In this document: one piece after another, positions 1 to 12,452 of the stretch
Layout: every line of letters begins with the position of its first letter
Position numbering within the stretch: the stretch's first letter is position 1
Assembly: GCF_028009165.1 (NCBI RefSeq)
Contig: NC_079242.1
Span: 2,852,001-2,916,000 of the forward strand
Origin: Akanthomyces muscarius
Lineage: Eukaryota; Ascomycota; Sordariomycetes; Hypocreales; Cordycipitaceae
Direction: 5' to 3'
Length of the DNA: 64,000 bases
The notes under the pieces: generated by a model
What the model saw: only the letters and a program-made list of their open reading frames with translations
What the model was told of the DNA's origin: nothing
Databases searched by the model: none
Program-made: the position numbers and the translations under genes

Positions 1-1359
1 CAAGACCGTCGACCATATATTATGAAAGAGACTGGGGAAGCCCGCAGCATCTTCGGCATCGGTGCTCATGAGCGTCACTGCGGCAGTTTCATCAAAGACA
101 CCATCCTTGAGCGTGAGGGAATCACTGTAGATAATGCCTACGAGACCTAACCGCGAAATGCGTTCGATGCGTGCAAGTAGGCGTTGATATATCCCATCGA
201 AAATCTATATTAGCGGTCAGCACTTCTATAGTCACTGCGGCCATTGCTTCGTGTCGACGCACCGCCATGCCAGTGTAAATGATGAATGTGAATAGCAGCA
301 GCCGAAATGCCTCATTTCGCGTTTCAAATGGCGTCAAATCTTTTGTGACAAATTGAATCGTGCGGCTGATGAGAAGTGGTTGACAGCTTTGCAGTATGAC
401 AAAGATGGCACGTGGTGGAATGATGTACACGTTTGGCCACCAGAGACATTTCCACTGCGCTCGCAGTAAGGTGAAGCGGCCTTCTGGCTTTCCTAGACTC
501 GCATTTAGTTGGATTCGTCATATTTTGGTCAGCGCTCACTTACTTCTCTTGCTCCATTCTTCCAGCATTGCTTTCCGCGCCTCTGCCGCATCCAGTGATT
601 GGGACAAGGGTGGCATATCGCCCAAAGACAATGGGTTGGTGTACCCGACTTTGAGAATTTTATTCACCCACCAGAAAAAGCACCTGCCCATAATACCAGT
701 TGTTTCCTCAGGAGATAACTTATTGTATGGATCGCGCAGAATAGACCTCTTTGTCCGGCTTTCCAGCACAAGCAGTACGAGTTGTGCTGCAAACGCAAGT
801 CCAGCAAGGCTCAGTAGGGAACCTGAATTCTTCGCTATGTAGAGGAGACCGGTCTGGATGACGTCACTCGAGCATGTTAGCAGCAAATATCCAGTTATAA
901 TTGTAGATGGCGCAACAGCTCTGCCGTGCTCCAAGAAAGAAAGCACGACGACGGCAATGTCTTTGGTCAGGAAAAGCAGCTCGGTGCCGCGAAAGGTCCA
1001 CGGCGACATCGGAACGTCCTCCCAAAGATGGGCTATCCGCAAGACCAAGAGCAGAAGAGTTACTGCCTGGAAGTCAATCTGTTAGCTAGTGTATACTCTC
1101 TAGCTCATTCGGAGATGCCCACAATCTTGGCGTAACCGCGACGGTTTGGGAGCACAACGAGCTTTGAGCGCCGTAGTTGCTGGATTCTAAAAGGGGCGCC
1201 GACGAGAACCCAAATAGATGGGCCAATTATCATCAGGCCCTGAAGAGCGGCATCCAATGTAGGATTATGGGAGAGGTATCCACGAAGCGGTACTGAGTTG
1301 TCGTTTCCGAGGCAGAGCTGCTCGGGCCAGTTGCCGAGCGCAGACGTTGGCGACCACAT
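1..1359 (-). CDS. ABCC-type (MRP-like) multidrug ABC transporter, N-terminal part
   Basis: Partial gene that leaves the window at its 3' end. Exons are 1359-1123, 1066-544, 492-263 and 204-<1. The three introns (56, 51 and 58 bp) have CTAAC/CTGAC branch sites, and the phase closes over 398 visible codons. The first intron's donor (GTGGGC) is weak, so that border could move by a few codons. The protein starts with hydrophobic segments typical of the TMD0 region of ABCC transporters, followed by the linker and the start of the first transmembrane domain (an IYTGMA segment, then RLGLVGIIYSDSLTL and ALMSTD-like TLMSTDAED). ABCC proteins are usually about 1,400-1,500 aa with two ATP-binding cassettes; those lie outside the window. 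Family members export conjugates, drugs or metabolites from plasma or vacuolar membranes. Its place beside a UstYa gene fits a metabolite exporter, but the substrate is unknown. Confidence 0.88.
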
Positions 1360-1612
1360 GGCGGCTTGAGATTTCGCGATTGAGATACAGGGAAGCTTGT
1401 CCGAGTTGAATATTTCGGGATTATGCTGCTTTCAAAAATGCCTTCCCCGCGTTTGCAAGGGATAAATTAAGAGGCACTGAGAACGACAAGGCTGCTGCAC
1501 CTCTTATACGTCCGTCGCACAGGACCCACCAAGCCACTCAGGGTCGCCCGCAGCTACAGCTCTTCTTCTACGCCTCAGACAACGCAAAATAATCGGTTGT
1601 GATACTTTTTAT
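1360..1612. promoter_or_regulatory. Upstream region of the ABC transporter / 3' flank of the HxxHC protein
   Basis: Short gap between two minus-strand genes. It holds the 5' region of the transporter. I see no ORF with coding features and no strong motif. Confidence 0.4.
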
Positions 1613-2242
1613 TCATCGAATCTCAACTAGACACGAAGAGAATCCCACCGTCGTCTCCGTAGTGAAGCTCGCTAGCTTCTCCGGCTCCAGCTCCGCCGTG
1701 TACATGAGCACTTCTGAGCAATGTCTTGTGTGGTGAAAGCTCGCGCTGTTGTCGTCCAAGTACAGACCGCCCTTCAGGTACCCCTTATGTTGCTTCTGCC
1801 AGACGTATGCGCAATGTACCGCGTGCTCCTTGGCGGTTGTGTAGTACTTGCCCGGCTCGACTCTCTCCGCCATGGCCGCCAGATCCAGCATCTCCTCGCC
1901 TTCTGCGTCGTTGTATCCATGCCAATTCACCGCTCTCTGGTACGCTGCGGCCGTCTCGGCGTCGAAGCACGGCTCGGGCACCCACAGGAAGGATAGGACG
2001 TCGAACTGGCAGCCGCGTGCCTTTGCATCGGCGGTCGAGTTTCCGCATGAAAGTGTCTTGGTGTTCTTCCGGGTCAACGAGATGATGTCGCTTGGGAAAA
2101 GAAAGAAGAGCCACCAGAATACGGATGTGAAGAAGGATGCCAGTATTATCGAGCTAAGCCGGGTCCTGGAAGTGCCCTGGCCTCCACGGCCAAGCACAGC
2201 GGAATGGGTGTTGGAGCCCATCTTTTGTTTCTGCGTGTTCAT
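1613..2242 (-). CDS. Small single-pass membrane protein with two HxxHC motifs (UstYa-like arrangement)
   Basis: Single exon of 209 aa; Met8 is an alternative start. Residues 1-30 are polar and basic, a membrane segment spans about 31-50, and the rest would be lumenal or extracellular. After the membrane segment comes a block with conserved-looking cysteines (CGNS at 66-69, GCQFD at 77-81, PEPCFD near 92). Two HxxHC motifs follow, His140-Cys144 and His171-Cys175, 31 residues apart. Paired HxxHC motifs behind one membrane anchor are the hallmark of UstYa (DUF3328) oxidases, and the spacing is similar. The N-terminal cysteine block, however, belongs to a widespread uncharacterised fungal family and is not typical of UstYa. 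I therefore call it UstYa-like by motif only. It lies between the transporter and the DOMON gene of the candidate peptide cluster. Confidence 0.75.
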   Translation of the reverse strand: MNTQKQKMGSNTHSAVLGRGGQGTSRTRLSSIILASFFTSVFWWLFFLFPSDIISLTRKNTKTLSCGNSTADAKARGCQFDVLSFLWVPEPCFDAETAAAYQRAVNWHGYNDAEGEEMLDLAAMAERVEPGKYYTTAKEHAVHCAYVWQKQHKGYLKGGLYLDDNSASFHHTRHCSEVLMYTAELEPEKLASFTTETTVGFSSCLVEIR

Positions 2243-2393
2243 TTTGTCGGAGATACACGGATTATTCGTCCTCTTCCATGGAGTTTATTTTGTTTCGAGC
2301 ACAACTAAAGTTCGGTGGAAGTAGGCTCGAATGAAGACGCTCAATGGTAACTGTGATCTCCCGGGTTGTCTCCCGGGTGGTGCTGGGCACCTG

Positions 2394-2419
2394 AGCAGCA
2401 CTCAGCTTGGAGTGCTGCT
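2394..2419. repeat. Perfect 10-bp inverted repeat (hairpin), 6-nt loop
   Basis: AGCAGCACTC at 2394-2403 is the exact reverse complement of GAGTGCTGCT at 2410-2419, with AGCTTG between them. Function unknown. Confidence 0.6.
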
Positions 2420-2565
2420 AATCAAACCACCTCGTAAATCCGGGGCAACTCACAAGGCGGGCCTCCTACAGAAAGGGATTGTCAAGCCTGGAATCTTCCT
2501 CAAGAATCCGGTTGCTGATAGTCCCTTGCCACTCGCCAAGGCCAGTGACAAACAATATTGGTTTA

Positions 2566-2747
2566 CTTCGCATGGATAACTCGATTAGGAGTAGTGCCAA
2601 CCTTTCATGAGTTGTCAACTGTAATCAGGCTGGGGCCCAATCCTTTCTGATGCAGAACCGCAAGTGTTTTGGGCTAGTTATATTGTCCCCAATTATAGCT
2701 GCAACAAGGCTATGCGCGACGCCTTCGCATGGATAGCTCGATTGGGA
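2566..2747. repeat. 25-bp direct repeat, two copies (2566-2590, 2723-2747)
   Basis: Both copies begin CTTCGCATGGATA and match at 23 of 25 positions. The two differences are A/G transitions. It may be a remnant of a repeat altered by C-to-T mutation, or a paired regulatory site. Confidence 0.5.
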
Positions 2748-3292
2748 ATTATGCTTGAAGATACTCTGTCCAGATAAGCATAAAATAAAGCCAAGTTTAC
2801 ATGCGCGGTCACTGCAAGGTTCCAAGCGAACCGTGATGGTACTCGCGCAAGGGCCATATAAGTCGTTAAGAGCCATCACCCAAACTCAAATACACGGATG
2901 CAGTGTACTGCGGCGCTAGATGCATTATTGGCAGCCAAAAGCTGCAGCGCCGAGTACTATCAAATGACGAGGCGGGCTGTATGCTTCCAGCTGTAGGATT
3001 TCCGCCGGCAGAGAAATATGAGTTGTCAGGTGTCGCCAAGTCGGCGGCCCGTCGCTCCAAATATGGGACTTTGAGGCTGTGAGAGACGGCATCGCATCAA
3101 TAGCTGGAGGAGTACATACACGCTCAAAACGCCATGATATCTGGGGGTATTTGGTATTTATTAGCCTGTTGTATGACGGAGTGCTTTCGGTAACGCTGTA
3201 TTGCGTCGTCCACTTCGGAGAGATCGTTAGAAACGGCGGGGATAGAAGCTTTTCTATCTCTACAAATTCCTCATTGTGTTCTCGGCGAGAAA

Positions 3293-4597
3293 ATGAACTC
3301 GAAAATTTGGCTACTTCTTGCTGTAGCTTCCTTCATTTGCCGCACCCTGGCGCAATCCGCACAGTACTGCAACTTCCCGGCTGGCCAACAACATCCCTCC
3401 GAGAATGACTTTTGTATCGCTGTACGGGCTCAACGAAACCACACCACCAGCCATGGTGATCTATACATCACCATTCACGTGTATCGTACCGACGAAAAAA
3501 CACTCGGATGGACTGCTCTGGGAATTGGTGCCAGCATGGCACAGTCACTATCGTTCATCGTCTATGGAGATCCTGGCAGCGGCGAAAGTCCCATCTTGAG
3601 CGTACGGCGATTGAATGGCCACTGGGAGCCCCAATCAATTGACAGCGCAGCGAATACGAGCGAAATCAAAGTCCTGCTGAGTGCCGCTGCGTGGAACGCA
3701 CATTCATTGAACTCTGAGGTCAAATTAACAGTGTCAGAACTGACTTTTATTTGCTTCTCTTGCGACACTGGGCTAGATTCCGACCTAGAGCCCTTGGTAT
3801 CTCTGGGATCCTTTTCTCAGCCCTGGATATGGGCTAAAAACACCGAACAGCGTCTCGCGGAATTTTCTGACACCAGCACCTTGGAGATGCATTCACTGAA
3901 GAATGGATGGGGAGCTTTCTACATGGACATGACCCAGACTGTCGCTTTGATTGCAAAAGAGGCCGTCGCACCCGCCATCAAGCCCGATGTGAGTGCCGTG
4001 GCCACATCAGCGACAGACAGGTCGCTTTCTCCGGACGAGCCGCCAAAAAGAGCCTCCTTGTATAGAATTCAGGCGTCCTTGCACGGCTTCTTCATGAGTC
4101 TTGCATTCTTGCTACTCTTTCCCTGCGGCGTCCTCGCAATTCTGTCCAGCCACCCCAGCGCGGTTCAACGCCACCGGATGCTTCAGGTAGCAGCCATGGT
4201 CTCTGTCTTCATAGGCTGTGTCCTAGGACTCCTCCTGCAACCACATCTTTCTGCAGTTCATCAAAAGCTCGGTCTCGCCACTTCAATATCAGTTGGATTT
4301 CAAGCAGCCATTGGCATGTATCACGATGTAACATTTCTTCGCAGGCATCGCCGTACGTGGGTGTCTGACGCCCACGTCTACCTTGGTCGTGTAGTTTTGG
4401 GTGCTGGGTACTGCAGCATTGTAACCGGCCTGTTGTTACACAAGACACCGGTTCTAACGTACGTGGTGGTAGGAGCTATTATGGCGTCAAACTTAGGCTG
4501 GATTGTATGGGCAAAGCTGCACAGTGAGCAGCAGCTTGGTGAGGAACCCTGTGTGCATACTGGGGCTTATCGGCTGGTAAAAGCCGAAGACGACTAA
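3293..4597 (+). CDS. Secreted DOMON-domain protein with C-terminal cytochrome b561 membrane domain
   Basis: Single exon, 434 aa. A signal peptide covers residues 1-20. A DOMON-type heme b domain follows at about 25-215: the GIGASM segment places a Met at 82 where these cytochromes carry a heme ligand, and His200 sits in the H(x5)G(x5)DM context of the second ligand. After a linker, about five membrane helices start near 255, with His264, His294, His323 and His361 in positions suited to bind the two b-hemes of a b561 domain. DOMON-b561 proteins are transmembrane electron carriers or ferric reductases. The gene lies between the two HxxHC genes. UstYa-type oxidases are metal-dependent, so it could move electrons or reduce metal for them, but that is inference. 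It could equally be an independent surface reductase. Confidence 0.88.
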   Translation: MNSKIWLLLAVASFICRTLAQSAQYCNFPAGQQHPSENDFCIAVRAQRNHTTSHGDLYITIHVYRTDEKTLGWTALGIGASMAQSLSFIVYGDPGSGESPILSVRRLNGHWEPQSIDSAANTSEIKVLLSAAAWNAHSLNSEVKLTVSELTFICFSCDTGLDSDLEPLVSLGSFSQPWIWAKNTEQRLAEFSDTSTLEMHSLKNGWGAFYMDMTQTVALIAKEAVAPAIKPDVSAVATSATDRSLSPDEPPKRASLYRIQASLHGFFMSLAFLLLFPCGVLAILSSHPSAVQRHRMLQVAAMVSVFIGCVLGLLLQPHLSAVHQKLGLATSISVGFQAAIGMYHDVTFLRRHRRTWVSDAHVYLGRVVLGAGYCSIVTGLLLHKTPVLTYVVVGAIMASNLGWIVWAKLHSEQQLGEEPCVHTGAYRLVKAEDD

Positions 4598-4727
4598 TTT
4601 ACAAGATGTCTGTATTGCATATTCATGAATTAGAAATTAATCTTAAACGTAAAATATTGCATACTAGAGCGAATAGGCCACTTATCGTGAAAACTTTCCA
4701 AACCTTGAGTGGTTTGTTTGTTTGTTT

Positions 4728-5748
4728 TTACGCCCACCCCATCTCTTCCAGTGTACGTCTCGCATCATCCGCAACGCCTTCATCGCCAATTCCATACTCA
4801 TAATTCGCAATATTTCGTCTCAAAACCCATTCATGAGCTTCATGGTAGCTCTTACAGGTATGGGTTTGTCTAAAATCCGGCAGAATTCCACCTTTGTTCT
4901 CCGACCAAACAAGGTTAATTGGCGTCATGTCCATGTGACACTGGATATATTGTCTTATAGCATCGATGCAGTGGTCTGCTCCATAGTCAATACGTGTTTT
5001 CTTTTGGAGATTCCTGACTTGTTCTCGGAGGACATACCCACGTGAACTTGTTGAAGCTTGGTTACGCCGTCTGGCAAGTAGGTCTGCCAATACACCGACT
5101 GCCGTACCTGGTCCTGCGTCTACGTCAGCACACGAACAACCTATTTCATCTGATTGATCTTACTAGGCAGTGAAGAACATGGAATGTAGAGATCTCGATC
5201 GTCGCAATATCTGTATCGGGGTAAAAGTAGAAAGCACCACCGATCTGCTCCGCCTCGTCTCGCGTAATATTCATGTCAGATGGTATCAACAAGTCCCAAT
5301 TCGTGTCGATCTCGTCACTCGGCTGACCAACATATTGCGGCGCACCTTGCATCGATGGTGTGCGCACAGGGTCGCCGTTGGCGTCAAGCTCCAGACCGGC
5401 ATCAAATTGGACCCGTTCGACGCTGAGCGTAGGAAATGGCGCGCCTGTTGGCAATCAGTCTTGTCTGTGGAAAGGGAAACATGAATCCGCCGTACCGAAA
5501 GCCGTTTTCCACCGTCCATCGTCCACTGAGGCTTGGGAAAGAAGGCGTCTGGCGAAGAATATTAAGTTGATGAATAAAACGGCGCCTCCCAGTATAGCAA
5601 AGAAACGCTCGATCTTTCGCCGCCTTTCTTGAATTTTCTCTCCTTTACCGTTTTGTTTTGATAAAAAATACTCTTCTTCTTCCTCTTCCTGGACTTCTTT
5701 ATTGAAATGAGCTTTCGACTTGGGTGAAACCAGAGACGGGAAACCCAT
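4728..5748 (-). CDS. UstYa-family (DUF3328) oxidative cyclase
   Basis: Four exons: 5748-5496, 5444-5164, 5113-5038 and 4975-4728, giving 285 aa. Introns of 51, 50 and 62 bp have good GT..AG ends and the phase closes. The start at 5748 is the first ATG in frame; upstream in-frame codons lack ATG. An acidic, lysine-rich cytosolic segment leads to one membrane helix at about 49-66. The family's two copper-binding HxxHC motifs are present: HVLHC at 173-177 and HVDHC at 202-206. The second is created exactly by the last splice join and is followed by IDAIRQYIQC and an HTCKSY segment typical of the family. UstYa proteins catalyse oxidative ring formation on ribosomal peptides (ustiloxin, asperipin, phomopsin) and on some other metabolites. 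It is divergent from the small peptide gene at 6267 and shares its 518-bp promoter. Confidence 0.93.
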
Positions 5749-6266
5749 CGTGCCTCCGAACAAAAACTCTGGGCAGCGAGACTTGACAACGGTGATCACT
5801 TCTGCTGTCGTTGCAATGGATTTACTCACAGTCAAATCTTCTAGGTACGAAGTGACGAATGGATTCAGGTTTAAATGCACACTTGCTGCGTGCTGGGCAG
5901 ACCCCTTGCAGTTGCCAAACGTTGCGATGTGAAGTGTTCACCTTCAACAGATGCACGACTCCTGTCACCATGAGACATACGGAGGATCGTGGCGCTTCCA
6001 ATGCGGAAGTCGATGCGAGCGCCAAGACAAATTCCTGTAATAGCCCCAGCCTGGTTGCACATCATGCATCCAAGTCCGCTGCCGCCACCATGTAAACAAA
6101 GCCTAGTTTACATAAAGCATTGCTCAAACGATCTCCATATTCGCAGGCAGATTCTGTAAAGCGTACAAATACAAGGAATCAACCCGGTCTGCTCAACCTT
6201 AATTATTAGCCAGTGTTTCTCATAGACTTTTCACCTCGTTCCAATTCGACACTCTCAACATCAACA
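5749..6266. promoter_or_regulatory. Shared divergent promoter of UstYa gene and small-peptide gene
   Basis: The two genes are transcribed away from this 518-bp spacer, which suggests co-regulation. The last 45 bases before the peptide ATG are CT-rich and end in CATCAACA, a typical fungal leader. An inverted repeat containing a forkhead-like core lies at 6090-6113. Confidence 0.6.
6090..6113. promoter_or_regulatory. Perfect 8-bp inverted repeat with forkhead-like core
   Basis: ATGTAAAC (6090-6097) and GTTTACAT (6106-6113) are exact reverse complements separated by 8 bp. Each half contains GTAAAC, and the left one continues as GTAAACA, the forkhead core. It lies 154 bp upstream of the peptide ATG and about 340 bp upstream of the UstYa ATG. 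Its use as a binding site is inferred. Confidence 0.4.
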
Positions 6267-6392
6267 ATGCAGTCCAAACTCATTCTAATTACCATCCTTG
6301 CCGCCGTCGCGGCCGCAACTCCTCTTTCCACCGTTCGAGGTAAAAAGGTCACATTCCTTCCAAAGGACTACAAAAAGTCCGTGTCTTCTTAG
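6267..6392 (+). CDS. Small secreted peptide; candidate RiPP precursor with one lysine-flanked core
   Basis: Forty-one codons, too short for most gene finders. Residues 1-17 form a clear signal peptide (MQSKLILITILAAVAAA), cut before TPLSTVRG. Then come a KK pair at 26-27, the block VTFLPKDY at 28-35, a second KK at 36-37 and the tail SVSS. Dikaritin precursors share this plan: signal peptide, then tyrosine-containing core(s) between dibasic sites cut by Kex2-like proteases. Known ones usually have KR and several copies; here there are KK pairs and a single copy. The leader before the ATG is typical of an expressed fungal gene. A caution: GTAAAA at 6340 and TTCTTAG at 6392 could bound a 53-bp intron that removes the whole KK..KK block and leaves a 28-aa peptide. 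Transcript data decide. Confidence 0.55.
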   Translation: MQSKLILITILAAVAAATPLSTVRGKKVTFLPKDYKKSVSS

Positions 6393-6448
6393 GTGTGTAT
6401 AGTTAATATGCCCGACGTTCTCATGTATGTAAGCTAACTGTCGAGCAG
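6393..6448 (+). other. Possible 56-bp intron directly after the peptide stop codon
   Basis: GTGTGT begins right after the TAG stop. GCTAAC lies about 12 nt before a GAGCAG acceptor at 6448. All three signals fit the introns of neighbouring genes, so it is probably spliced in the 3' UTR, or used by an alternative transcript that changes the peptide C-terminus. Confidence 0.45.
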
Positions 6449-7255
6449 TGTGTCTTTGGCTGTTAATGGCCTTCGGTTAGGTTTTCACCCTGTCAGTTGG
6501 GGGTTTACCTACCCTGTATGCAAATTCAGAGGCCGATATGGCGCAAATGTATTTATTGTGAAAAAATGCTTTTTTTAGCCACCCCTATGTCTTGCTTGTT
6601 AAACTAGTAGATGTTGTTCCCGCAGGATGCGTGGGGTAGAGGAAGCAACCCGCATGCAAGTGACCTCGTACACTTCGGGCAGAAACGTCAACCTGGCGCG
6701 GCACCACATGTGCATCAACTTATTGATTGTAACGTTTATATTGTTTTCCAGCGCAGATCAGCATTCTGTAGAGATGCTAGGCAATAGTGGCCAATTAAAC
6801 CCCTCTCGACAATACTTGCAGTTCGTGCTAGGGCTTGGGAAAGGCCAAGTTTTATTCGCCACAGTTCTGCGCTCGGGATTATTTTGGCGGTCTTGCGTGC
6901 GCATGGTAGTGGGCACAGCTCTCTCCAACGGGCATGATAGGCCGCTAGTACAGCACGTCACTAGGTAGCGTGTATCTACTTGAGAATTCTTCTGCATCCT
7001 GCAACGACACGCAATTAGTATGCGCCCAGACAGCAACAGGATTCTGTTTGGTTTTCAGCTTCAGCCTGGCTTCTCCGGGGCCTGTGTTATGCGCATGACT
7101 CGGAGCTAAGATCCGCCGCAACTCTTGGGATCATAAATCCGCCGCTCTGGACATTCCCGATCTGTGGCTGTCGAATAGTGCTGCGTCTACGTTGAATACA
7201 ACATCTTCGCCTAGTGTTGCATTTGCTTCGCTTATTGTGTTCTTTATCTTAAAAA
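6449..7255. other. Intergenic, no supportable gene
   Basis: About 800 bp between the peptide gene and the regulator. An open frame near 6627-6968 has no recognisable domain and probably arises by chance. The last 100 bp are the AT-rich leader of the regulator. Confidence 0.45.
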
Positions 7256-8297
7256 ATGCCTAATACTGGAAAACCGTCCCCAGGCTGTCATTTATGTAGG
7301 TCTAGGCGAGTCAAGGTTCGTTGTGTCGCCCTTCTTGCAGATAATCGACTTTGCAGACTTACGCCGATTACTTCAGTGCGACCTCAGAAGGCCGGTTTGT
7401 CAAAAATGTAGCGTATACGGTGTTATTTGTCCCGGGTACCGCGCCGATATAGACTTGCTTTTTCACCACGAGCGGCCTGACAAGACAGCCAAGAAACGAC
7501 ACAGGCGGTCTTCGTCCAGCAAAGTGATCGATTCAGCTATAGCGGTACGGTCTCGTCGAGATACAGACCAGTGTTCGTCCATATCTATCTTTTTGAACTG
7601 GTTAGCAGCGTCACCTAGAGGTTCTTCGTCACACACAGTTCGGAGCTTTTTGCCAGAAATTTACTCCGAAGTTGAGGCAGATCACTGTATGGTGTTGGCG
7701 ACCAGTGCAATAGTACACAAGCACCTACTCCTTGATATCAGTGACGCAAGGGTCAGGGGGCTATATTGCATCGCGCTACAAGCGACGAAGCGTATGTTGA
7801 GCTCACCTGGCGCGGCTGTCACAGACGCCGGCATCGTTACTGTTTGGCTACTCTCACTCTACGAGGTATTTTTCTTGCTCTTCTCATGCCACTCCACCAT
7901 GTCTTTTGGATTACACTTTTTTTCGCTAACTTCATCCAGATGTTATCAGTAAGCTCTTCTCAGTGTGCATCTCCATCTCCATCTCTAGTAGCATGGTCGC
8001 ACCACACGGACGGCCTCAGCGCCCTCATTTCCCTACGCGGTAACTTTCAGTGCAAAACTGCCCGCGGGCGCGCCATATTCTGGGCCGCCCTCGAACACAT
8101 CGTAAGCAACTTCATCGTCCTCCTAATATCCTCCTTCTCATTTTTACTAGATCTTTCGGCATTTCAAAGCCCAAGAACCGATTACAGGTACATGCTTGCA
8201 GTCCCTCATGAACATTCGCTACTTCGCAGACTCTCAAGACGTGAGCTTCCTTGCAGAGTGCTGTTTCTCTATGCTACAGTCTGCCTATATTGTCTAA
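7256..8297 (+). CDS. Short Zn2Cys6 (GAL4-type) transcription factor
   Basis: Exons are 7256-7315, 7377-7865, 7940-8101 and 8151-8297 (285 aa). Introns are 61, 74 and 49 bp. The second has an excellent GCTAAC..CAG end and the phase closes. The first splice join completes a perfect CX2CX6CX6CX2CX6C zinc cluster at residues 11-38 (GCHLCRSRRVK joined to CDLRRPVCQKC), followed by a basic stretch (KTAKKRHRRSSSSK) near 60. The middle resembles the fungal regulator domain, including the LYEML..SS and SHHTDGLSALISLRG segments. Most such regulators are 400-700 aa, so the C-terminal half is short; a stop at 8297 and the next gene at 8556 leave no room. It may be a truncated or reduced cluster-specific regulator. 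The exact 3' end is less sure than the N-terminus. Confidence 0.82.
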
Positions 8298-8555
8298 TGA
8301 AGATAACAATGATATATTTCTTCTCAGTCTCATTACCTTCGGTTTCGAAGAAACCTAAATATCCAGGACATAGACTAAACCGAAGATAGTGCCACTTATA
8401 AGCCTAAACCCCCACTTAACGTTCATTATTTAGTTAACAGAAAGGGCGTGTAATGTCATTCTCTGAGAATTATGCCCTTTTAAAAGCTGTGCATTCTCGG
8501 CCGCCCCGTGCCCAAGCGCTTTCCCAAAGTAAAGAAGGAGAATATACACGCCAAA

Positions 8556-9275
8556 ATGAAGACTGTCGGCATCATCGGAGGTAGCACTGATCTCGCCACT
8601 GCCGAGTATTATAAGCTCATCAACGCCACGGTGCGGGAGCAGCTCGGCGGCCTGCACACTGGCGAAATCATTATCAATTCCATGGACCTTGCCAAGAGCG
8701 CGCACTACGTCCACAACGCCCTCTGGGACGAGGGCGGCGCGTACCTCGCTGGCAAGGCCCAGAGCCTCGAGCGCGCCGGCGCCGATTTCATCATCGTCGT
8801 CTCCAACACCTGGCACCGCGCGGCTTCCATCTTCATGAAAGACGTCACGATTCCGCTGCTGCATATTGCGGACCCTACCGCCACAGCGATCAAGGCCCAA
8901 GGCTTGAGTAAGGTCATTCTACTGGGCACGAAGGCGACCATGGCCACGCCATATCTCATTGAGGAGTTCAAAACGCGTGGGATAGAGGTGGTAGTCCCGA
9001 CGGACGCGGAGCAAACGTTCATTGATGATGTGATTTTCAAGGAGCTGAGCTTCTGGCAATTCAAGGCAGTGTCGAAGCAGAGGTATCTGGAAATTATGGA
9101 TCGTTTGGTAAAGGAAGAGGGCGCGCAGGGTGTCATTCTGGGATGCACAGAGATTCCACTTTTGGTGAAGCAAGAGGATAGACCAGCGGTGCCAATGTTT
9201 GATACCCTGACACTGCACGCCAAGGCCGCGGCCCTCCGAGCCGTTGAGGACGGTGTCAGACTACAAAAGGTGTGA
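8556..9275 (+). CDS. Aspartate/glutamate racemase family protein (L-specific type active site)
   Basis: Single exon, 239 aa, starting at the ATG in CCAAAATGAAG; the open frame extends upstream only through non-ATG codons. The N-terminus MKTVGIIGGS is the family's first strand and loop. In place of the first catalytic cysteine there is Ser83 in the segment VVSNTWH. The second, Cys197, is intact in LGCTEIPLL. The E. coli relative YgeA/L-DER uses the unequal pair Thr83/Cys197, so this protein falls in that group and not with the two-cysteine racemases. The expected reaction is interconversion of L- and D-aspartate or glutamate. It is a single-exon gene beside the regulator and could supply a D-amino acid or be unrelated to the cluster. 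Confidence 0.88.
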   Translation: MKTVGIIGGSTDLATAEYYKLINATVREQLGGLHTGEIIINSMDLAKSAHYVHNALWDEGGAYLAGKAQSLERAGADFIIVVSNTWHRAASIFMKDVTIPLLHIADPTATAIKAQGLSKVILLGTKATMATPYLIEEFKTRGIEVVVPTDAEQTFIDDVIFKELSFWQFKAVSKQRYLEIMDRLVKEEGAQGVILGCTEIPLLVKQEDRPAVPMFDTLTLHAKAAALRAVEDGVRLQKV

Positions 9276-9848: not shown

Positions 9849-10785
9849 TTATGTAAAGATGGGCCGAGCAGCGGCAGTGGTTGCAGCTGGCAGGAACTTC
9901 TTGTCCATGCAAGCAATCACTGGATCGAAATTAGTGGCTTGCACTATCTCGAATACACATTGCGCAACTTGTCGACGGCATTCGTCCTCCTCCATGTTGT
10001 ACTTGTTCTGGCCTGCCGAGGTTGAGCAAAGCGCAGTCTCCATCTCTTTCGGGCCGAGTGGCTTGCTTGCGGAGGGCTGCGCAGGAGCAGCCGAGACTGG
10101 TGCATCTCTGAGCCTCTGCTGCAGTGCATCAAGAGCCGCCTCCTGCTCTGGTGTTTCGACGTGGTTTTTTCCGTAGTCACCAGCGGTCCATTCTAGAGAC
10201 TCGCCTCTCTCGTGCTGCGCTTGCATCTGCAGGCCGGAAACCATAGTCCCGGTCCGACCATGCCCGTAGCCGCACCAGACCAGTGTACCGTTGCGATGTT
10301 GGACAAAACTCTCCCAGCCCTTCTGGAAGTCCTCTGGAGTGAGGGTGTGAAAATCTTCGACTGGTCGTGGTGTGTAGGCAATACCGGCTGTCGCAAGAGC
10401 CGTCTTCATATCCTCGGCATTGGCTTGACTATTAAGGCTAATCACATGTGTGATGCCGCTTTCTTTGAAGAACGCAATAGTCTCGTCTGTAATCTTTTGG
10501 TCACTGTCGGAACCGTGGTAATATGGCGCAGAGGAGCGAGCAAGCAGATCTCCAGGGGCAATATACTCCTTCACAATTTCGAACCGATAGAGGCCGCCTT
10601 CTTCTGCGCCGCGTCGAAAAACTTGCACCCAATTCATTAGCGATAAAGCATCATATCGTATCAAGTAGCGCCATACCTGGTCCGTACTGCTCAACACCAC
10701 GCTCTGCTTTGTCTGCTCCGTTTGGGAGAGCGTGGACCGCCGCAGCCACCCCAACAAGTGCAACAAATGCCTTCTGAATGAACAT
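9849..10785 (-). CDS. Secreted protein-tyrosine/dual-specificity phosphatase-like protein
   Basis: Two exons, 10785-10677 and 10603-9849 (287 aa), joined over a 73-bp intron with an in-phase CAG acceptor. A classic signal peptide covers residues 1-19 (MFIQKAFVALVGVAAAVHA). The catalytic P-loop is intact: Cys147, five residues (GYGHG) and Arg153, followed by TG, which is the CX5R signature of cysteine phosphatases. Asp120 in PVEDFHTL is a candidate general acid. The domain resembles small bacterial-type dual-specificity phosphatases. The C-terminal 100 residues contain a low-complexity stretch and a cysteine-containing tail (MEEDECRRQVAQC). A secreted phosphatase of this type is unusual in fungi and could act on host or environmental phosphate esters. 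The substrate cannot be read from the sequence. Confidence 0.82.
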
Positions 10786-12452
10786 GGCGCTAACTGAAGA
10801 GAGATATGTGGTAGAAAGACGTGTTTTGATAAAATCACCTATAGCTGACTATTTACCGCTGGTGTACTAATAACAGCTGTTGGAAGGTCGATCGGCACCG
10901 CCTTTATATATCCTGTTGTTGTTCATGGTTGTGTAATACGAGAACCGATCAGATTTGGTAAGACATGAGCCATGACGCATGAATCTAATTTATTCGTTCT
11001 TTATGCCCTGATCTTCTTTCAAGTGCCGGGGACTCACGACTCAGTTGTAGTAGAAGTATACATAACTTTCACGATTTTCGACCCGCAGCACCCATCAACC
11101 AAGTCCATTTTAAACTATGGTGCTTACTACGGCGCTAGAAATATGAAGCTACTAGCTGTTTTGGGCGCGATTTTCCTTTAGCACCGAGTCGCTCATATTC
11201 GGAACAATTCCGTCGGCTTGGTGCAAAGCCGCCTCTGTACCCGCTGCCTAGGTGATCCTGGTTGGGGGCGTTCGTACCTGCTTCCAGTGTCCACAGTGAG
11301 TCGCGAGTCGTCTGTCCTTTTTCAACTCGAGAGCGGTGCATTACCGCTTTTATTTTCTCTACTATATGGCAGCGTGGTTATGCGCGCGACGTATCATGAG
11401 AGTATTAATGACCTGGCTGGGTGGCTATCATAATGATTATGAAGCAAGGGAGAAAAGGGTTCATTGAGAAAACAGAGCTCAAGGGGCTTGGCCTCTAGGA
11501 CCCCTCGTATCTATTGTCTTCGATTGGTGGACCACAGCGACGGGCCGGGAACACAGCAGCAGTGCCTGAGTAGAGTTGCCAGCCTTTGTGGTCAGAGGCT
11601 ATGCAGTATGACTTGATTCGATATTCTTGCGAATGAAACGGTATCACTTGGCAGAGCCTCAGCAGATTGGGGCTGCGACGGGGATTTAGCATAGCCTCGG
11701 CAACTACCGACGCTCAGCCCGGCAGTGCTTCCGTGGTCTCGATGGGGCAAACCAGGCACGACAATGCAAGCCTTGGCAAGAAGAACAATTGAGTTAGTGA
11801 TTCGGCAGTCGGCGGCTTGGCAGGCTCGAATTAGGCCGTGATCGCGTGAGGCCACAAAGGTCGTTTATCAGTATGTCTCCATGGCCGAAAGTGCTGAAAC
11901 TCGTGCTCAGCTGCGTTGTGTTGTTTCAGCTGTCTAAATCCAGATCCTTTTTTAAAATCGCTTCCAGGGAAGCGTTTGATCGCCCAGTGAGTCCTGAAGC
12001 CTACCAGCGACGCCACTTGTCCTGACCACAGATCGCAAGAAAGCAGATGTGCAGAACTTTGACTCATCTAGGCCGGCATATAGTCAATCGCCCAATGTTT
12101 TATTTACACAGCGTGTAAAGTGAAGCCTAAGTAGAATATTTAGCAAGTGCGCTTTCGAGAGACGCCCTAAATAGTCTCACGCCCACTCCACAAATCAAGT
12201 CACCTGGTTAAATTGAAGAGTGCGAGAATAGAATAGCGGCTTTACGAATATGAGTTTAAAAAATCAATGGGGTATATTAATCAAAGTTTTTACACCACAT
12301 AAACACATTAAAGTTTCATCAGATAGAAAGAAGTCCTATTAGCACGGCTATTTGAAAGACTGACTCAAAGGCTTGTCTGCAGCTAGCGACAACAAGCTGA
12401 CCGATATTGTCTTCACCATGTGGAAAATGTGTTGACCTCGCAATGCCTCCGC
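10786..12452. other. 1.7-kb gene-free stretch
   Basis: No frame here has a convincing start, splice signals or a recognisable domain. It includes the upstream region of the secreted phosphatase and a 7-bp palindrome arm pair (TTTACAC/GTGTAAA) at 12103-12119. Probably decayed intergenic DNA. Confidence 0.45.

Follow-up and report, generated by a model that had tools for sequence, protein, structure and literature searches.

The dikaritin clusters, described for ustiloxin, phomopsin and asperipin-2a, combine a UstYa protein carrying two HxxHC motifs with a small open reading frame (ORF) of the secreted type, a transporter and a regulator. Genes of all these kinds are found in Akanthomyces muscarius at the start of a 64,000-nucleotide stretch of DNA (the window, C2:2852001-2916000 of a 36.2-Mb genome in 12 contigs), the transporter gene extending into the adjoining upstream stretch (L009). 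They surround a UstYa gene that has a divergent 41-residue ORF on one side and a DOMON-cytochrome b561 (DOMON-b561) gene on the other. A first-pass annotation had listed a gene set around UstYa within 9.3 kb; all of its members have been recovered, and the overall observation is confirmed. The enzyme that defines the dikaritin class in the accessible text of PMC12048977, a DUF3328 protein with two HxxHC motifs, is present. Compared with the dikaritin clusters, the locus lacks a repeated core and has in addition the DOMON-b561 gene and a second HxxHC protein. The same text quotes an older five-gene definition that includes a tyrosinase and a methyltransferase; neither is among the proteins scanned from the window and L009, which represent a subset of the frames.

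Two other groups of UstYa-type proteins offer a comparison. The lichen clusters of Clans R1 and R2 contain UstY genes without repeats, and a single core is raised as one possibility (PMC12048977); their accessory genes differ from those seen here, and the text available proposes no precursor. CctR shares both family and motif with the window protein. In the accessible part of PMC12435403 it is a dicopper DUF3328 enzyme that faces the organelle lumen, uses O2, works via Cu(I) and requires electrons, and its authors hypothesize an accessory protein, not named in that text, supplying electrons or Cu(I). CctR acts in the pathway to cyclochlorotine, a non-ribosomal peptide, and DUF3328 proteins work beyond the ribosomally synthesized and post-translationally modified peptides (RiPPs). 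In contrast to CctR, with its non-ribosomal substrate and unnamed donor, the UstYa protein of the window has a gene for a candidate donor adjacent to its own.

In cellobiose dehydrogenase a heme domain (CDH-cyt) feeds electrons to copper lytic polysaccharide monooxygenases, and cytochrome b561 serves copper monooxygenases in secretory vesicles. The window protein resembles the former in its CDH-cyt domain, which is joined here to a b561 membrane domain and not to a flavin domain, and whose partner would be UstYa. In a literature search mostly without subscription papers, none of the matches listed mentions DOMON or cytochrome b561 together with UstYa or DUF3328. DUF3328 genes adjoin 22% of 7878 Kex2 repeat proteins in PMC7329392, and DOMON is not mentioned in the text available from that source.

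UstYa and the linked DOMON-cytochrome b561 gene

The UstYa gene occupies 4728-5748 on the minus strand and was read as four exons (5748-5496, 5444-5164, 5113-5038 and 4975-4728) separated by introns of 51, 50 and 62 nt. The spliced product of 285 residues carries HVLHC and HVDHC, in agreement with the pattern HxxHC(x)nHxxHC; the second motif appears only once the 62-nt intron is removed. The gene had been credited with both motifs in the first pass, and rightly so. The product belongs to the family by its match to PF11807 (E 2.2e-34, 119.7 bits against a cut-off of 25) and is 55-61% identical to homologues from Lasiosphaeris, Pestalotiopsis and Cordyceps. No relative of solved structure was found at E values up to 1.

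The DOMON-b561 gene (3293-4597, plus strand) encodes 434 residues. A CDH-cyt match (E 3.2e-10) and a Cytochrom_B561 match (E 1.8e-5) make the product a two-domain protein of the CYBDOM-like type. M82, H200, H264, H294, H323 and H361 are invariant across 13 aligned sequences and are presumably the heme ligands.

Eight CDH-cyt matches are present in the genome. The three best paralogs of the window gene (C11:844, C1:2068 and C1:2045) are 34-35% identical to it with E values of 6e-44 or better, and the next match (C4:3202) has an E value of 9e-11. The window gene lies 230 bp from the nearest UstYa match and the three paralogs 3237, 7985 and 12862 bp from theirs; for the remaining four CDH-cyt matches this distance is between 102 kb and 1.7 Mb. 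The UstYa matches were grouped into 22 clusters, and 1.6% of the genome falls within 13 kb of a match outside the window cluster. Three of the seven other CDH-cyt matches are found in that fraction (p 1.5e-4). When the two C1 genes, which lie on either side of a single cluster, are merged as one locus, two of six are near (p 0.004).

A tree built from 25 proteins puts three of the four genes in separate supported groups: the window protein beside proteins of L. hirsuta and of metagenomes (99/100), the C11 protein beside Colletotrichum (96/98), and C1:2045, which has a long branch, beside Trichoderma (100/100). C1:2068 is unplaced. In L. hirsuta the homologues of UstYa (B0H67DRAFT_588614) and DOMON-b561 (588617) have identifiers three apart, and each is on a contig of 4,599,326 bp. 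We infer that they are neighbours on one contig. The DOMON-b561 gene had been described in the first pass as an unusual partner outside the known set, a view contradicted by its repeated linkage to UstYa genes, the apparent one in L. hirsuta included.

Both the C1 and the C11 clusters with DOMON-b561 paralogs hold SDADAATAY repeat precursors. On C1:2040001-2080000 (L025-L028) a UstYa pair accompanies the precursor SDADAATAYKADKR. By eye, some frames there look like S53 peptidases and OPT transporters, and a large one looks like a Ste13-type membrane dipeptidyl aminopeptidase, which could trim DA steps. The sister cluster on C11:835001-852000 (L041-L042) has three UstYa genes, the precursor SDADAATAYVVDKR, a DOMON-b561 gene and, by eye, S53-like frames.

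Several observations count against a donor role. A DOMON-b561 paralog is found within 13 kb in only two of the other 21 UstYa clusters, and the separation of the four near CDH-cyt genes from the four far ones by score was made after the fact. C4:3202, far from UstYa, carries a b561 match, and weak b561-like matches lie alongside C3:70 and C3:250, which are also far. No match to PF03188 is found in the two C1 paralogs, although C1:2045 keeps the conserved histidines. The 26 matches to DOMON-b561 (7999 candidates scored) include no protein of P. fici or C. javanica. The far genes and the small number of clusters with a near paralog would suit a general ferric or ascorbate-type reductase whose proximity to UstYa is a coincidence or an effect of the accessory genome, and plant CYBDOM proteins are described in partly accessible sources as acting in iron reduction. 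Such a reductase would leave the placing of three of seven (or two of six) CDH-cyt genes near UstYa, and the apparent linkage in L. hirsuta, to chance, and we consider it unlikely. A DOMON-b561 protein that serves UstYa as electron donor is suggested by domains, linkage and topology, since with its signal-like N-terminus its heme domain would face the same side of the membrane as the UstYa active site; this assignment is tentative, at a little under even odds. The repeated linkage is the more interesting result of the analysis, as it names a candidate for the accessory supply postulated for CctR.

The 41-residue frame and secreted frames near other UstYa genes

The 41-residue ORF (6267-6392, plus strand; MQSKLILITILAAVAAATPLSTVRGKKVTFLPKDYKKSVSS) is divergent from UstYa with a start-to-start distance of 519 bp. 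It opens with MQSKLILITILAAVAAATP, and a single block ending in Tyr, VTFLPKDY, lies between KK pairs, just as the first-pass annotation had it. The hydrophobic core of the frame (3.25) is among the strongest of the small-ORF scan. Crude signal-peptide ORFs with a Tyr block between dibasic pairs number four in 291 kb of genome with this one included (about 1 per 73 kb), and Markov sequence would give 0.1 per 64 kb. Finding one next to UstYa is unusual but not decisive. The repeated cores that follow the signal peptide in dikaritin precursors are missing: the signal-like candidate 519 bp from UstYa is without repeats, and no repeat precursor was detected by a tandem-repeat scan of the window or by a Kex2-repeat scan of the window and L009.

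Other UstYa genes of the genome provide a context for this frame. Flanks were inspected for 17 of the 22 clusters (C6:2423, C3:3596, C4:782, C4:1964 and C10:323 were left out), 11 as deep stretches (ten blocks and the window with L009), five through flanks of about 1.5 kb each, and one, C5:2938, through short loci. The density of small signal-peptide ORFs was determined for the 11 deep stretches in DNA free of long frames, where near means within 1.5 kb of UstYa matches. There were 12 such ORFs in 42.2 kb near UstYa and 9 in 113.5 kb farther away, a ratio of 3.6 with p 0.0035. Some clusters contribute two or more of the near ORFs, of which at least three look spurious by eye. The Markov background is 3.1 per 100 kb. 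With the window locus excluded the counts are 11 near and 7 far (p 0.02), and three alternative settings give ratios of 1.9 to 3.5 with p from 0.013 to 0.03; all of these p-values are optimistic, because the signal-peptide rules were home-made and set after some of the loci had been seen, and this lessens their weight for the reading proposed here.

A small secreted-peptide candidate was found in 12 of the 17 clusters, six with repeats and six without. Five repeat precursors came from the Kex2-repeat scan: SVEDYTIGPEKR at C1:1214 (C1:1214569), IEYTHPAGGVTDKR at C3:2382, APKGDILYNNQAGWGKR at C5:2940 and the two SDADAATAY precursors, at C1:2061 and C11:851 (C11:851025). The sixth, at C3:2446 (C3:2446003), has three imperfect copies of KKFGDISTLIETNY and an intron after the signal peptide. 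Its cores have the form AAKK-FGDISTLIETNY-KR, with Tyr at the end and KK and KR on the two sides, and judged by sequence they are the nearest precedent for KK-VTFLPKDY-KK. Non-repetitive candidates lie beside UstYa at C3:2302, C3:3193, C3:1768, C5:40 and in the window, and that at C1:213 is uncertain. The short non-repetitive secreted ORFs next to UstYa genes in L033, L039-L040, L031-L032 and L003, some of which need one intron, are possible single-core precursors with Tyr or Trp. An accepted candidate is absent from five of the 17 clusters, four of which were scanned with 1.5 kb of flank. C2:1773 has none in its flanks. Among the five short-flank clusters C5:40 has a candidate and three have none; a small ORF at C5:2845 was rejected as weak.

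Evidence against the 41-residue ORF as precursor comes from several sides. A search of 5.8 billion proteins for homologues gave one candidate and none at an E value of 1 or better, and no second copy was found elsewhere in the genome. The ORF has one core and KK pairs, whereas KR or RR is used in the five precursors of the Kex2-repeat scan. By eye, the core is flanked by GTAAAA near 6340, weakly donor-like, and by TCTTAG, which is acceptor-like; if they were used for splicing, VTFLPKDY would be removed as an intron (6340-6392), for which no good branch point was seen by eye. It also counts against the overall reading of the locus that no nine-mer, as might mark a shared promoter motif, is common to three or more intergenic stretches.

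The locus could be a genuine UstYa peptide locus whose precursor is another gene, one that lies at a different place in the genome or is spliced beyond recognition. By eye, an intron seems to follow directly on the signal peptide in three of the six repeat precursors (C11:851025, C1:1214569 and C3:2446003), so that scanning frames could miss a precursor of this kind, and the five clusters without an accepted candidate, four with only 1.5 kb of flank, fit this as well. The lack of a repeat precursor in the window and L009 and the strong hydrophobic core of the 41-residue ORF speak the other way, and a precursor other than this ORF is thought unlikely. The enrichment of secreted ORFs near UstYa and the Tyr-ending cores of C3:2446 between KK and KR make a single-core precursor plausible at this locus, though unproven. 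VTFLPKDY is a plausible core by its sequence, and the 41-residue ORF is the leading candidate for the precursor, with a chance approaching one half.

Other genes of the locus

A protein of 209 residues (1613-2242, minus strand) carries HAVHC and HTRHC, so that the second protein with paired HxxHC motifs reported earlier does exist. It has no match in Pfam or NCBIfam. The genome yielded one paralog, a C5 gene with 36% identity across the aligned region and both motifs kept; a UstYa match is 289 bp away from it, in a cluster with a repeat precursor. When the 209-residue protein was compared with the UstYa profile by hhalign, both motifs aligned with an E value of 0.0025 and a probability of only 12%. 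Distant kinship with UstYa is possible on this evidence. Structural likeness of the two could not be added in its favour, the models (mean predicted local distance difference test scores of 40 and 43) being too weak to search with; both motifs lie in predicted helices, to which no weight is given.

The transporter is partial in the window (1-1431, minus strand; an unspliced model with frames 536-1081 and 1105-1431) and runs upstream into L009. The two in-window frames have no Pfam match. Upstream, one frame carries ABC_membrane and ABC_tran and a different frame a further ABC_tran, and the best solved relatives of this part are ABCC1 (MRP1) structures (E 8.8e-94), which places the gene in subfamily C, the assignment originally made. 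Upstream of the transporter are a beta-lactamase-fold protein (PF00144, L009:2956-4149) and an ADH_N fragment (L009:5073-5648).

The regulator gene (7256-8400, plus strand, 3' end approximate) contains introns. Its Zn2Cys6 domain scores 19.8 in one unspliced frame, against a cut-off of 21, and 34.2 bits (PF00172) after removal of a 61-nt intron at 7316-7376, which bears out the early identification.

A racemase gene follows at 8556-9275 (plus strand). Its product matches PF01177 (E 9.2e-34) and is similar along its length to PDB 5hqt, an Asp/Glu racemase (E 9.3e-50), so that the family named in the first pass is correct. SNT at the first and GCTE at the second position are taken by us to mark the catalytic places. 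The two other racemase genes found in the genome lie 2.2 and 3.0 Mb from the UstYa matches on their contigs. A part for the racemase in the pathway was rejected on this ground; the gene is probably a bystander, and the D-amino-acid step once suggested for it finds no support. Beyond it, at 9849-10838 of the window, is a frame of the dual-specificity phosphatase type (PF22784, E 9.6e-9), with a secreted-looking start upstream in another frame.

Proposed function

The explanation offered here, to which a probability of about 0.4 is given, is that of a biosynthetic locus of the UstYa type whose substrate is a small secreted ribosomal peptide, with the following steps. A short precursor, most likely the 41-residue product, would enter the secretory pathway by its signal peptide. 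Membrane-anchored UstYa, its two HxxHC motifs holding two lumenal coppers, would then oxidize the core or cross-link it, with the Tyr of VTFLPKDY as a plausible site; the motifs are seen in the product, and the chemistry is presumed from that of family members. The DOMON-b561 protein would move electrons across the membrane and re-reduce the copper centre of UstYa, possibly along with that of the second HxxHC protein, as its domains, its conserved His and Met and its linkage suggest. Dibasic-site proteases would free the core and the ABCC-type transporter would export it. No part is required of the racemase.

The more general statement, that the UstYa locus acts on a ribosomal peptide, is probable and well supported, because 12 of the 17 inspected clusters carry small secreted candidates, six of them with repeats. 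To this extent the context favours the RiPP cluster proposed in the first pass; DOMON-b561 as an outsider and the D-amino-acid step are the parts of that proposal that have been given up. A substrate of another kind for UstYa, either non-ribosomal like the cyclochlorotine of CctR or some other small molecule, the small ORF being unrelated, would accord with the activity of DUF3328 proteins outside RiPP pathways in the accessible text of PMC12435403, but is improbable given the enrichment of small ORFs near UstYa and the lack of any non-ribosomal peptide synthetase or polyketide synthase among the proteins scanned from positions 1-11 kb of the window and L009.

A wider proposal is more doubtful, at perhaps one chance in three: DOMON-b561 proteins may be the missing donors of electrons to lumenal, copper-dependent UstYa/DUF3328 enzymes, in the secretory pathway what P450 reductase is for its partners, and many UstYa proteins of this fungus may use short secreted single-core peptides that repeat mining has overlooked. 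DUF3328 enzymes carry out difficult C-H chemistry, and a linked heme-b561 gene is a testable candidate that could aid their reconstitution. Single-core precursors, if real, would broaden the mining of fungal RiPPs, which now leans on repeats.

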